From Mycobacterium sp. (GTDB lineage Bacteria > Actinomycetota > Actinomycetes > Mycobacteriales > Mycobacteriaceae): 46,163 nucleotides of DNA. Each line of letters opens with the position of its first letter. Position 1 is the first letter of the stretch. The DNA lies in contig JAHFVC010000001.1 in the NCBI GenBank assembly GCA_023264765.1, positions 1 through 46,163 of the forward strand. Direction: 5' to 3'. The position numbers were made by a program, and so were the translations under genes. Of the stretch, positions 12,062 to 35,681 are shown in pieces. The notes beneath the pieces were generated by a model that worked only from the letters and a program-made list of their open reading frames with translations, was not told the DNA's origin and searched no databases.

Positions 12062-12361
12062 ATGATCAAATCGCTCGCGCTCCTTCCCGTCGGCCTGGTT
12101 GCCGCTGGCCTGGCTCTGGCCGCACCGGCCGGCGCAGCCCCGACCGGTCCGTCGACCGCGCAGCAGACCATCAACCAGTTGGAATCCGAGGGGTACAAGG
12201 TGATCACCACCAAGGTGGGGGCCGGCTCCCTTGATCAGTGCAGCGTCAGTGGGGTCCGGCCGGGCCGGGACATCACCGAACTGAAGGCGTTCCCACGCGG
12301 CAATACGCAGGAAGTCGTGCGGTACACGACTGTTTACGTTGATCTGGCCTGTGCGAGGTGA
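12062..12361 (+). CDS. small secreted protein, unknown function
   Basis: 99 aa from ATG 12062, with AAAGG 8 nt upstream; a longer frame from 11978 lacks this. Residues 1-29 are a Sec signal peptide ending APAGAAP. The mature part of about 70 residues (starting PTGPSTAQQTINQLESEG) has two cysteines, in DQCSVSG and at VDLAC near the end, which could form one disulfide. The short predicted helix followed by beta strands is common among mycobacterial exported proteins of this size. I do not recognise the family. It sits 106 bp after the two-component system and 18 bp before another secreted protein gene, with which it may be cotranscribed. Confidence 0.8.
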   Translation: MIKSLALLPVGLVAAGLALAAPAGAAPTGPSTAQQTINQLESEGYKVITTKVGAGSLDQCSVSGVRPGRDITELKAFPRGNTQEVVRYTTVYVDLACAR

Positions 12362-12379
12362 CCAGGTTAGGGTGTGGCC

Positions 12380-12931
12380 ATGCTGAGCAAGATGCTGATC
12401 GCGGCGGTGAGCGCCGCGAGCGCCGCGGCGTTCGGGTTGCCCGGCATGGCCGTGGCCGACCCGGCGCCCGCCCCTGCGCCGCCTCCGCCGCCCAACATCG
12501 GTGGCTATGAGCTGGCCAAGCCGTCGCAGTTCATGGTGATGGACGGCTCGGCCTACGCCTTTGTCGTCCCGGGCGGACTCAGTTGCATCATGATGCGCAC
12601 CACAGGTGACTACGGCTGTGGTGGCCAGATCCCGGGCCCGCCGCAGCCTGCGAACGTCGTCACCGGCGGGCAGGTCGGACCGCCGGCGTTTGCCCAGAGC
12701 GGCGCCCCGATCTACGCCTCGCTGGTCGGGCACATCAACCCGCTGCTGCCCAACACGAAGATCAGCTACAAGAACATCACCTGCGGCACCGACGGTGTGA
12801 TGACCACCTGCCAGAACTCGTTCGACCAGTCCGGGTTCGTGCTCAGCCCGGCGGGCAGCTTCATCCTCAACCAGACGAACCCTCTGGTGGACCGGCCGGA
12901 CGACGCAGGCCGAAACCCGTTCTTCAACTGA
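12380..12931 (+). CDS. secreted Pro-rich protein, unknown function
   Basis: 183 aa from ATG 12380 with AGGG 7 nt upstream (GTG 12374 is an alternative). Signal peptide of about 27 residues ends GMAVADP; a proline run follows (APAPAPPPPPN). The folded part contains four cysteines (SCIMMRTTGDYGC, ITCGTDGVMTTC) and ends in a conserved-looking GFVLSPAGSFIL segment. This is the layout of a family of exported mycobacterial proteins that I know only as hypothetical. Soluble after cleavage; no lipobox. Confidence 0.78.
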   Translation: MLSKMLIAAVSAASAAAFGLPGMAVADPAPAPAPPPPPNIGGYELAKPSQFMVMDGSAYAFVVPGGLSCIMMRTTGDYGCGGQIPGPPQPANVVTGGQVGPPAFAQSGAPIYASLVGHINPLLPNTKISYKNITCGTDGVMTTCQNSFDQSGFVLSPAGSFILNQTNPLVDRPDDAGRNPFFN

Positions 12932-13033
12932 GCGGATCGCGCTCGGTGTGCACGTTCGCGTGTTGACTCGTCCGTGAGGGCGTTGGTTACTCGCACTTGT
13001 GCGCCATAGCCGACAAGTCAATGCGCAGGACTT

Positions 13034-13129
13034 CCCCTGATCGGGGGACAACGACTTCATCCGGTGCATCCACCGGTTACCCGACAGATCCGATGCGTGA
13101 ATCCCGGCATTCTTATCTCAACGCCGGAA
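13034..13129 (+). promoter_or_regulatory. 96-bp conserved upstream element, copy A
   Basis: This segment aligns without gaps to 34046-34141, with about 69 of 96 positions identical by hand count. Conserved blocks are CCCC(T/C)GATCGGGGGA, ACGACTTC, CCGGTG, ACCCGACA and GGCATTCTT followed by TCAACGCCGGAA. The first block is a near-perfect palindrome (perfect in copy B). It ends 26 bp before the start codon of a small secreted peptide. It probably holds a promoter and a regulator site; the regulator is unknown. Confidence 0.8.
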
Positions 13130-13155
13130 AGCCACTCACACAAAGGATTACAGAA

Positions 13156-13380
13156 ATGAACTTCACCTTCCGCAACCTGGGCCTGACAATCTGCACCGCC
13201 GGGATCATCGGCGCCGGAGCGCTCGGCCTGGCCGGTACCGCCTCGGCAGCCGCCCAGGCCCCGACCGGCCCGGGCTACTCCTACAGCCCCGAGGTCAAGG
13301 CCCACCCGGCGCCGTCCGCCCAGCCCGGCTGGCATGGCCATCACGGCCCGGCCCGCATTGCCGCCCTCGAAGGCCGCTAG
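13156..13380 (+). CDS. small secreted peptide with a His/Gly-rich tail
   Basis: 74 aa from ATG 13156; AAAGGA is 6-7 nt upstream. Signal peptide of about 31 residues ends GTASAAAQ. The mature peptide of about 43 residues is rich in Pro and Gly and has GWHGHHG near the end, a possible metal-binding cluster. No recognised family. The gene is preceded by the 96-bp element shared with the His-rich peptide gene at 34192 and followed by a strong hairpin terminator, so it forms its own transcription unit. The mature sequences of the two peptides do not align, though both contain His clusters. Confidence 0.78.
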   Translation: MNFTFRNLGLTICTAGIIGAGALGLAGTASAAAQAPTGPGYSYSPEVKAHPAPSAQPGWHGHHGPARIAALEGR

Positions 13381-18976: not shown

Positions 18977-19075
18977 TGGATCCTCCCTCTCCGGATAGGC
19001 CGTTTTCGTCTTAGGTACATCCTCGTTGTAGTCTTCTCCTCGCACCAAACCGGTCCCCGGTGAGTGCGACACCCG

Positions 19076-19157
19076 GCAGGTTGCCCGAGCGGCCAATGGG
19101 AGCGGACTGTAAATCCGTCGGCTAACGCCTACACAGGTTCGAATCCTGTACCTGCCA
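19076..19157 (+). tRNA. tRNA-Tyr, anticodon GTA
   Basis: The acceptor arm pairs GGCAGGT (19076-19082) with ACCTGCC (19150-19156), discriminator A19157. The anticodon loop reads CTGTAAA within GGACTGTAAATCC, giving GTA. A long variable arm (CGGCTAACGCC region) marks a class II tRNA, as expected for bacterial tRNA-Tyr. The T loop GGTTCGAATCC is standard. CCA is not encoded. Confidence 0.96.
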
Positions 19158-34037: not shown

Positions 34038-34045
34038 CCTCTTGT

Positions 34046-34141
34046 CCCCCGATCGGGGGAACACGACTTCCCCCGGTGGATGGGCCGGTCACCCGACATA
34101 CATCGGGGTGCGTGCGCGGCATTCTTGTATCAACGCCGGAA
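34046..34141 (+). promoter_or_regulatory. 96-bp conserved upstream element, copy B
   Basis: Gapless match to 13034-13129. Here the first block is the perfect 14-bp palindrome CCCCCGATCGGGGG (34046-34059), followed by ACGACTTC, CCGGTG, ACCCGACA and GGCATTCTT with TCAACGCCGGAA. It lies 9 bp after the receptor kinase stop and 50 bp before the His-rich peptide start, so the palindrome could also affect termination of the kinase gene. Confidence 0.8.
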
Positions 34142-34191
34142 CACACCGGACAGATACAGCGAAAAGCCAAGCCGCACAAGGAGAACATGAC

Positions 34192-34398
34192 ATGAGCACC
34201 ATCGCCCGCCGGATCGCCGCCGGAATCGTCCTCGCGGCAGCGCCGACCCTGATCGCCCTCGGTGTCGCAGGCAACGCCGATGCGCACACCACTCTGGCGA
34301 ACAACGGCCCGCAGGTCGCCCACACCGCGTTCGCGCATCAGGACAACGCTCCGCAGCCGGGCACCGCGGTGCACCATCACCACCAGAAGAACCGCTAG
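34192..34398 (+). CDS. small secreted His-rich peptide
   Basis: 68 aa from ATG 34192; AAGGAG is 8 nt upstream. Signal peptide of about 31 residues ends GNADAHTT. The mature peptide of about 37 residues has seven or more histidines, with HTAFAHQ in the middle and HHHHQKN at the end, so metal (Zn, Ni, Cu) or haem binding is plausible. No cysteine. It has no similarity to the peptide encoded at 13156 in its mature part, although both have the same upstream element. It ends 3 bp before the convergent small basic protein gene. Confidence 0.8.
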   Translation: MSTIARRIAAGIVLAAAPTLIALGVAGNADAHTTLANNGPQVAHTAFAHQDNAPQPGTAVHHHHQKNR

Positions 34399-34677: not shown

Positions 34678-35562
34678 TCACGCGGCGTCGCGCAGCCGCA
34701 CCATGCGCGTGGTCGAACTCTCGTCCAGCTCGACGGTGTCCGACCGGGACCGCAGGAAGTCACTGAACGACCGGAATCCCAGAGATTTCTCGCTGAACGA
34801 CGGATCCATCCGCTTCATCTGTGCCTTCACCGCGGAGTTGTGCAGCCAGTCGACATCGTCCTTCTCCATGCCGATCTGTAGGGCCCGGGTCAGCAGCGCG
34901 GTCGCGGCCGTCTGTGGGTCGGGCGCGGCGGGTTCGTCCTCGACCTTTTCCTCGGGTGCCGACCTCTTGGTGCGCCGGGCCGGTTTGGTGGGCTCCGGCG
35001 CGGGCGCGGGTTCGAACACCGGGACGCCCGGCAAGGCGTCGTAGACGACGAACTCATCGCAGGCCGCGGCCAGCGCACGACTGGACGAGCCCGCCACACC
35101 GATACCCACCACGTAGCGGCCGAGTCGTTTGCAGCGTTGGGCCAGCGGTATGTAGTCGGAGTCGCCGGCGACGATCACCACATGCGTGAGGTCGGGTAAC
35201 CGGAACATGTCCTCGACGGCATCGACGGCGAGCCGGATGTCGGCGCCGTTCTTGCCGTATGCCGCCGCGGGAAACAGTTGCACAAGATCGACGGCCCTGC
35301 CCACCAATTGTTGGCGGTATCCGGCATTGACGTCGGCCGACCAGTCGGCGTAGGCCCGGGTGAGTACCAGCGTGCCGAACGACGAGGCGAAGTCCAGGAC
35401 GGCGCCGACATCGACGGTGGCGCGCGCCAGGTGATCGGCCTCCAGCCCCTTGGCTTTGTCGCGCTGAAACGAATTGCGCCCGTTGACCTGGTCGTATCGG
35501 GAGATGACGATGTTGTCGAAGTCGAGGTAGACCGCCACGCGGGTGGCTGCGGTGTCCGTCAT
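34678..35562 (-). CDS. NYN-domain nuclease with C-terminal OST-HTH/LOTUS-like domain
   Basis: 294 aa from ATG 35562 (ATG 35580 is six codons earlier; neither ribosome site decides). Residues 1-165 are a NYN (PIN-like) domain: VAVYLDFDNIV with Asp14 and Asp16, LTRAYADWS, KNGADIRLAVDAVEDMF, and VIVAGDSDYIPLAQRCK, all four acidic positions expected for the metal site. An Ala/Pro/Glu-rich linker (about 185-215) joins a C-terminal LOTUS-like domain (ALQIGMEKDDVDWLHNSAVK, DPSFSEKSLGFRSFSDFL). The fusion suggests an RNase recognising structured RNA, such as G-rich or quadruplex-forming RNA as proposed for LOTUS domains. RNA target unknown. Confidence 0.88.
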   Translation of the reverse strand: MTDTAATRVAVYLDFDNIVISRYDQVNGRNSFQRDKAKGLEADHLARATVDVGAVLDFASSFGTLVLTRAYADWSADVNAGYRQQLVGRAVDLVQLFPAAAYGKNGADIRLAVDAVEDMFRLPDLTHVVIVAGDSDYIPLAQRCKRLGRYVVGIGVAGSSSRALAAACDEFVVYDALPGVPVFEPAPAPEPTKPARRTKRSAPEEKVEDEPAAPDPQTAATALLTRALQIGMEKDDVDWLHNSAVKAQMKRMDPSFSEKSLGFRSFSDFLRSRSDTVELDESSTTRMVRLRDAA

Positions 35563-35681
35563 CGGTCCAGTCTGGCCCATCGCTGTCCCGCCTTTGGCGC
35601 GGATCGCTCCCGGCGCCTAAACTGGGGTGACGCATTTGAGCGGCCCGCTACCCGCCGCCGCGCAGACGGGCGGAAAAACAG

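Follow-up and report, generated by a model that had tools for sequence, protein, structure and literature searches.

The closest described counterparts of the system reported here are regulators of the NarL family. NarL of Escherichia coli prefers 7-2-7 sites such as TACCCCTAAAGGGGTA, according to the part of the source accessible to us (PMC4549865), and the Streptomyces NarL-family regulator BldM binds TCACcCgnncGgGTGA, as the available portion of that report states (PMC4125116). For Mycobacterium tuberculosis, the accessible text describes NarL as acting with DevR at the narK2 promoter in nitrate metabolism (PMC8139620), and for Rhodococcus sp. P14 an excerpted source describes a LuxR-family ‘NarL’ that binds GAAAGTTG-CAACTTTC as a repressor (PMC7037279).

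We analysed 46,163 nucleotides of a Mycobacterium sp. (assembly GCA_023264765.1, contig JAHFVC010000001.1, positions 1 to 46,163 of the forward strand; hereafter the window), in which a 96-bp element stands twice in front of a small peptide gene. From sequence comparison we conclude that this element is a promoter-like unit repeated throughout the family, which is likely switched on by NarL and would drive genes of small predicted secreted proteins.

Comparison with the described systems shows likenesses and differences. By our own count, the E. coli site TACCCCTAAAGGGGTA, as given in the accessible text, is identical to TCCCCCGATCGGGGGA at 11 of 16 positions (PMC4549865). Inverted heptamers, a 2-bp gap, a C-run followed by a G-run and an outer T...A are common to both, whereas the inner bases are CCG-AT-CGG in the element and CCT-AA-AGG in the E. 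coli site. The targets differ as well, being predicted secreted proteins here and respiration operons in E. coli. The BldM sequence TCACcCgnncGgGTGA, again as found in the available portion of its source, agrees with the element core at 12 of 14 specified positions (own count), and BldM group I sites share its 7-2-7 form and the CCCGnnCGGG core (PMC4125116). BldM is an orphan developmental regulator, while NarL has a kinase gene alongside in the loci inspected; the regulons resemble each other in a WhiB-like ORF behind the narL-linked element of three genomes (G017, G051, G058). Regarding mycobacterial NarS-NarL, the best solved relative of the candidate regulator is M. tuberculosis NarL (3EUL), and a narL-kinase gene pair is present. 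However, the secreted-protein regulon proposed here differs from the role in nitrate metabolism with DevR that the accessible text assigns to M. tuberculosis NarL (PMC8139620). The palindrome given for the Rhodococcus sp. P14 ‘NarL’, perhaps not an orthologue of the present NarL, is other than the element core, as far as the excerpted source goes (PMC7037279). No description of such a NarL secreted-protein regulon was found in the literature searched, in which subscription journals were mostly outside coverage.

The element and its conserved layout

The two copies, at 13034-13129 and 34046-34141, align directly and without a gap with 69/96 identities, exactly the value that an earlier note on this DNA had estimated by hand. 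The next best ungapped match to the 96-mer in the whole window, on either strand, reaches 45/96, which excludes an identity no better than that of random GC-rich upstream DNA. The downstream ORFs start at 13156 and 34192, 26 and 50 nt past the element, so that the spacers differ, as had been noted. The palindrome described before was confirmed but is longer than claimed, namely 18 bp (GTCCCCCGATCGGGGGAC); copy 2 (34044-34061) differs from this sequence solely at the last base and copy 1 (13032-13049) at the first and seventh bases. The features are as follows (all on the + strand):

13032-13129, +: element copy 1, promoter unit from operator to predicted start region (covariance model match in its own genome, E 2.9e-23; 69/96 to copy 2)
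13033-13048, +: 7-2-7 inverted heptamers TCCCCTG-AT-CGGGGGA, predicted NarL dimer site centred at about -79.5 (from sequence and the conserved positions of 151 non-redundant copies)
13056-13062, +: TTC--CC block (TTCATCC), perhaps another heptamer (conservation of T 90-99 %, of C 94-96 %)
13073-13086, +: block CCG-T...GACA centred near -40, perhaps a degenerate second NarL site that overlaps the -35 (conserved positions 43-45, 47, 53-56)
13085-13090, +: weak -35-like hexamer, 17 nt from the -10 (placed by position and A58/C59 conservation)
13108-13113, +: -10-like hexamer CATTCT of copy 1 (conserved A79 and T83)
13120-13155, +: predicted 5′ leader from the +1 A, lacking a stable hairpin (conserved CA; fold -0.5 kcal/mol)
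13156-13380, +: P0001, gene of a 74-aa peptide with predicted export signal, ..GPGYSYSPEVKAHPAP..PGWHGHHGPARI.. group (two close paralogues behind copies on contigs C169 and C530)
34044-34141, +: element copy 2 (E 7.0e-25)
34045-34060, +: 7-2-7 inverted heptamers TCCCCCG-AT-CGGGGGA of copy 2 (sequence, conserved positions)
34068-34074, +: TTC--CC block (TTCCCCC) of copy 2 (conserved positions)
34085-34098, +: block CCGGTCACCCGACA near -40 of copy 2 (conserved positions)
34097-34102, +: weak -35-like hexamer CATACA of copy 2 (placed by position)
34120-34125, +: -10-like hexamer CATTCT of copy 2 (conserved positions)
34136-34149, +: 5′-leader hairpin CCGG-AACACA-CCGG just past the predicted start 34132 (recurs in other copies)
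34192-34398, +: P0002, gene of a 68-aa peptide with predicted export signal, ..FxHQxNxPQPG...HHHHQ group

Queried by blastn with 13030-13135, the genome to which the window belongs (6.7 Mb, 586 contigs) yielded the second copy at E 3.1e-14 together with three more (E 2.6e-31 to 5.2e-8), two of them 90-91 % identical and one shorter (E 5.2e-8); a small ORF with an export-like start follows each of the three. Profile R1, a sequence-only profile built from 23 copies (alignment A2, i.e., 23 of 27 listed copies, excluding L020, L033, L035 and L037), detects eight copies in this genome at E < 1e-6. No Rfam family reached the gathering score on the element, the only Rfam match in the window being a tRNA at 19075-19157.

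For the position weight matrix, 225 unique copies were reduced to 163 non-redundant ones (< 85 % identity), of which the 151 covering at least 85 columns were used. The conserved operator positions are ungapped and read T3 C C n C C G9 A T C12 G G n G G A18 C A, followed by TTC (26-28), CC (31-32), CCG (43-45), T47, GACA (53-56) and AC (58-59). Since the variable positions 6 and 15 are symmetric, the core reads TCCnCCG-AT-CGGnGGA, i.e., inverted heptamers separated by 2 bp, with all other core positions conserved to 86-100 %. This 7-2-7 arrangement is the one bound by NarL-family regulators, and judged by its sequence the element core has the corresponding inverted heptamers. Further downstream lies a sigma-70-like -10 hexamer xATnnT (A79 92 %, T83 95 %), and 6-7 nt beyond it a start-like CA (C89 84 %, A90 88 %). 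The stretch earlier suspected of holding the -10 and the start site coincides with A79 and T83, the two best conserved positions there. With A90 taken as +1, the centre of the palindrome falls at about -79.5 and that of the CCG..GACA block at about -40; this block contains no clean heptamer pair, and the -35, assigned by its position, is poor. The near-gapless spacing over 80 bp indicates a geometry at the DNA level.

Spread of the element and association with narL

The profile search of mycobacterial genomes that the earlier note proposed gave an element match in 120 of 148 genomes of the same genus (R1, E ≤ 0.01), with up to 14 copies per genome, so that an absence of further copies in related genomes is excluded. 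At the family level, 53 of 201 genomes in 14 of 31 genera have a match (E ≤ 0.001). As the scans scored the best 18-24 candidates per genome, these copy and genome counts are lower bounds. A pattern scan of genomes found at least 111 stretches; among 80 titles listed from it, 70 are mycobacterial, seven Rhodococcus (including R. erythropolis, R. jostii and R. maanshanensis), one Antrihabitans and two unclassified actinobacterial MAGs.

Even before narL was searched for, 26 of the loci retrieved with the element proved to contain a narL orthologue, and a further locus contained part of one. For the 26, identities are 71-84 % to the NarL-type protein of the window's genome (contig C462), whose best PDB match is the M. 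tuberculosis NarL receiver 3EUL (E 4e-62), named NarL by its depositors. We take this NarL to be an Rv0844c-type protein and mycobacterial NarS-NarL to be Rv0845-Rv0844c. The candidate carries a LuxR/GerE-type DNA-binding domain, and the initial guess of a LuxR-type regulator was therefore right at the class level.

Within the genus, narL was found in 106 of 148 genomes (E ≤ 1e-70), all of which have the element at E ≤ 0.01. The table of genomes with both, element only, narL only or neither is 106/14/0/28 (Fisher p 4e-20, phylogeny ignored), or 103/9/3/33 at an element threshold of E ≤ 1e-3. For the 201 genomes and 31 genera of the family set it is 50/3/2/146, corresponding to an odds ratio of 1217 (p 5e-41, phylogeny again ignored); outside the genus, 38 genomes of this set have both, three the element only, one narL only and about 144 neither. 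Six genera (g6, g9, g11, g14, g22, g24) contain some genomes with both and others with neither. The exceptions were inspected individually. Three of the 14 genus genomes with an element and without narL at E 1e-70 have narL in pieces or truncated: in G107 two out-of-frame pieces lie next to an intact-looking element (L387, L391; G107:C48), G145 has two partial matches on separate contigs and G134 one partial match. In the other 11, no orthologue was detected down to E 1e-35 (G013 gave just a 38 % match). Two of these, G054 and G055, contain good elements (E 9e-13 and 5e-12), whereas element matches in the remaining nine are weaker (E 7e-8 to 0.006), with incomplete genomes among them. In the family set, G220 has an element at E 2.2e-8 and no narL at 1e-60.

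To describe linkage, we searched 2.5 kb on each side of the best narL gene in each of the 106 genomes and kept the best-scoring element per locus; 21 further narL-like matches of 57-64 % identity were left out. In 34 of the 106 genomes an element lies divergently upstream of narL, 33 times at 25-51 bp; a second element about 38 bp from narL in G066 would raise the count to 35. Short elements (columns 2-54) occur about 1 kb past the narL stop in 16 loci, and in the three of these inspected they head a gene convergent with narL, which in G001 is an E1-type dehydrogenase. Five loci have an element placed otherwise, and 51, among them that of the window's own genome, have none within 2.5 kb either side (three of these loci are cut by contig ends). 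Outside the genus, a divergent element stands within 150 bp of narL in at least 16 of 39 cases, and within 3 kb an element occurs in at least 24 of them. In R. erythropolis, narL is flanked by two element-headed genes (L172). A histidine-kinase gene adjoins narL in the inspected loci (HATPase_c in the one scanned). Behind the narL-linked element of G058 (L333), G017 (L345) and G051 (L360) lies the WhiB-like ORF mentioned above, matched by Pfam Whib in the case of G017. Short elements before an E1 dehydrogenase-like gene were also seen in L378, L365, L381, L437 and L208, and this gene is convergent with narL in the first three. Its position relative to narL is presumably that of Rv0843.

Could another LuxR/NarL-type regulator, such as DevR or a BldM-like or RamA-like protein, control the element, with narL linked by location alone? 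The BldM site, as the available portion of its source gives it, is very like the element core, and in the window's genome a RamA-like LuxR gene ends about 0.8 kb upstream of the copy on contig C180 (L129, about 856-1692; G000:C180:18975-19808; NCBIfam RamA 173 bits for a fragment, cut-off 500). Such a gene stands beside the element only in this genome among the element loci examined, and across the same 201 genomes RamA-like genes give 29/24/89/59, an odds ratio of 0.8, on which grounds a RamA-like regulator was rejected. DevR is associated with the element to a degree (48/5/89/59; odds ratio 6.4, p 2.6e-5): devR is present with most elements, yet it also occurs in 89 genomes lacking one. Set against the odds ratio of 1217 for NarL, these values for DevR and the RamA-like protein speak against control by another regulator of this class, which we consider unlikely. 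A promoter switched by NarL remains the likely reading, because the element is found almost only in narL genomes and in roughly one third of these is a direct neighbour of the gene. What the earlier note postulated, a regulator and promoter common to both copies, is borne out in silico by the many copies, the fixed spacing to the -10-like hexamer and CA, and the co-occurrence with one regulator gene.

Leader hairpin and proposed mode of action

Downstream of the predicted start, a leader hairpin (score ≥ 8) is present in 72 % of the 151 non-redundant copies versus 17 % of shuffles, with most stems starting at 91-94. When hairpin arms were swapped among copies in free register, native arms fitted in 109/151 copies versus at most 88 across four sets of 200 swaps. 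Both results would agree with a conserved block that acts chiefly in the RNA leader, in a riboswitch-like or mRNA-stabilising manner, and not as operator and promoter in the DNA. However, conservation is strongest at positions 3-59, ahead of the -10-like hexamer, and near-gapless there, as that of a DNA element would be. Besides the lack of an Rfam match, a fixed-register pair count of the leader hairpin on A2 found covariation no higher than in shuffles. In the RNAalifold prediction the palindrome is the sole folded part and shows no compensatory changes, for which reason an RNA structure of the palindrome was rejected. In the window, copy 2 has the leader hairpin and copy 1 no stable one. 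We therefore consider a primarily RNA-based element very unlikely, and the hairpin is likely a secondary feature.

For the NarL-switched promoter, the conserved positions suggest the following mode of action. Activation rather than repression by NarL is favoured on the predicted layout, since the palindrome sits upstream of -70 and the second block overlaps a poor -35. A NarS-type sensor kinase encoded next to narL would pass on the signal. A phosphorylated NarL dimer would bind the 7-2-7 inverted heptamer TCCnCCG-AT-CGGnGGA at about -80, with a second, weaker NarL contact possibly near -40, over the poor -35, and NarL may then recruit the housekeeping polymerase to the xATnnT hexamer. Transcription would start at the conserved A (A90; window 13120 and 34132), and a short hairpin, expected at the very 5′ end of many transcripts, could protect the mRNA.

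Products behind the element and their meaning

Listing of the genes downstream of the element, which had been proposed together with the profile search, gave mostly small, export-like ORFs: for 138 of the 163 non-redundant copies, an export-like start of an ORF no longer than 200 aa follows at a distance of 95-260 nt, versus 89 of 400 random places. By this heuristic, 15 of the 163 have no export-like ORF at the expected place. Some such copies head other genes, by eye thioesterase-like (L203) or E1 dehydrogenase-like (L208). This association with export-like ORFs and the restriction of conservation to operator- and promoter-like positions make it extremely unlikely that the copies are left over from a family of mobile repeats and lie near secreted-protein genes by chance, which the up to 14 copies per genome and the tandem clusters (e.g., five within 9 kb in G063) might otherwise suggest. 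A phage or plasmid origin was rejected, as no match at E 0.01 was found for copy 1 in 50,697 phage records or for copy 2 in 72,556 plasmid records. The cluster in G063 comprises five tandem element-peptide units (L091; G063:C14:14000-31000), suggesting local duplication.

No Pfam or NCBIfam model matched P0001 or P0002. The two fall into different sequence groups, which fits the earlier view of them as unrelated. Histidine clusters are not general among the products downstream of the element. In 118 short products, histidine content past residue 28 reaches 10 % in 53 and is zero in 11, and 20 products of 101-200 aa are His-poor (median 1.7 %). The metal-scavenging role that had been offered for these peptides is consequently not supported as a general one, and a metal-peptide regulon was rejected as the general reading.

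The Rhodococcus-type products are predicted by modelling to form a single beta-sandwich matching solved aegerolysins, with only 7-17 % identity to aegerolysin or actinoporin-fold proteins; for four of them (two cut at 150 aa) no Pfam family was found at the cut-off. A 148-aa product of the window's own genome (L048) was not placed among the aegerolysin-fold products, because its alignment to that set comprises 51 columns, chiefly signal peptide.

Several further observations concern the neighbourhood of the element. Directly upstream of copy 1, two more predicted exported proteins are encoded without an element (window 12062-12361 and 12374-12928), the former resembling by eye the product of an element-headed gene next to narL in L367. 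Transporter genes of MFS type follow other copies (L194, L211, L222, L235; by eye). A patatin-like gene recurs by eye downstream of element-peptide units (L091, L092, L094, L097, L099), and L091 also contains, again by eye, a recurring gene similar to the NYN-domain gene at 34678-35580 of the window. Near copies in L161, L164 and L196, a 55-aa exported ORF (MKKY...GPSATAPHVDTTVHGSR) is divergent from the palindrome of HHHHQW-type peptides; the palindrome may therefore serve both sides.

A broader reading, to which we give about even chances, is that actinobacterial NarS-NarL is not primarily a nitrate system but a dedicated switch for exported proteins, in which copies of a single rigid promoter cassette have come to stand before numerous small secreted proteins unrelated to each other, namely His-rich peptides among mycobacteria and aegerolysin-fold proteins among rhodococci. 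As the Rhodococcus targets include predicted aegerolysin-fold proteins, the role of the latter would become a question of the signal of one regulator. For a well-known but poorly understood two-component system, the analysis provides a testable operator, promoter layout and target list on a family-wide scale. A regulatory cassette better conserved than the proteins behind it may also aid in finding unannotated small secreted proteins. If the broader reading is true, the family would possess a common secreted-protein programme, the members of which turn over fast while the cassette stays.
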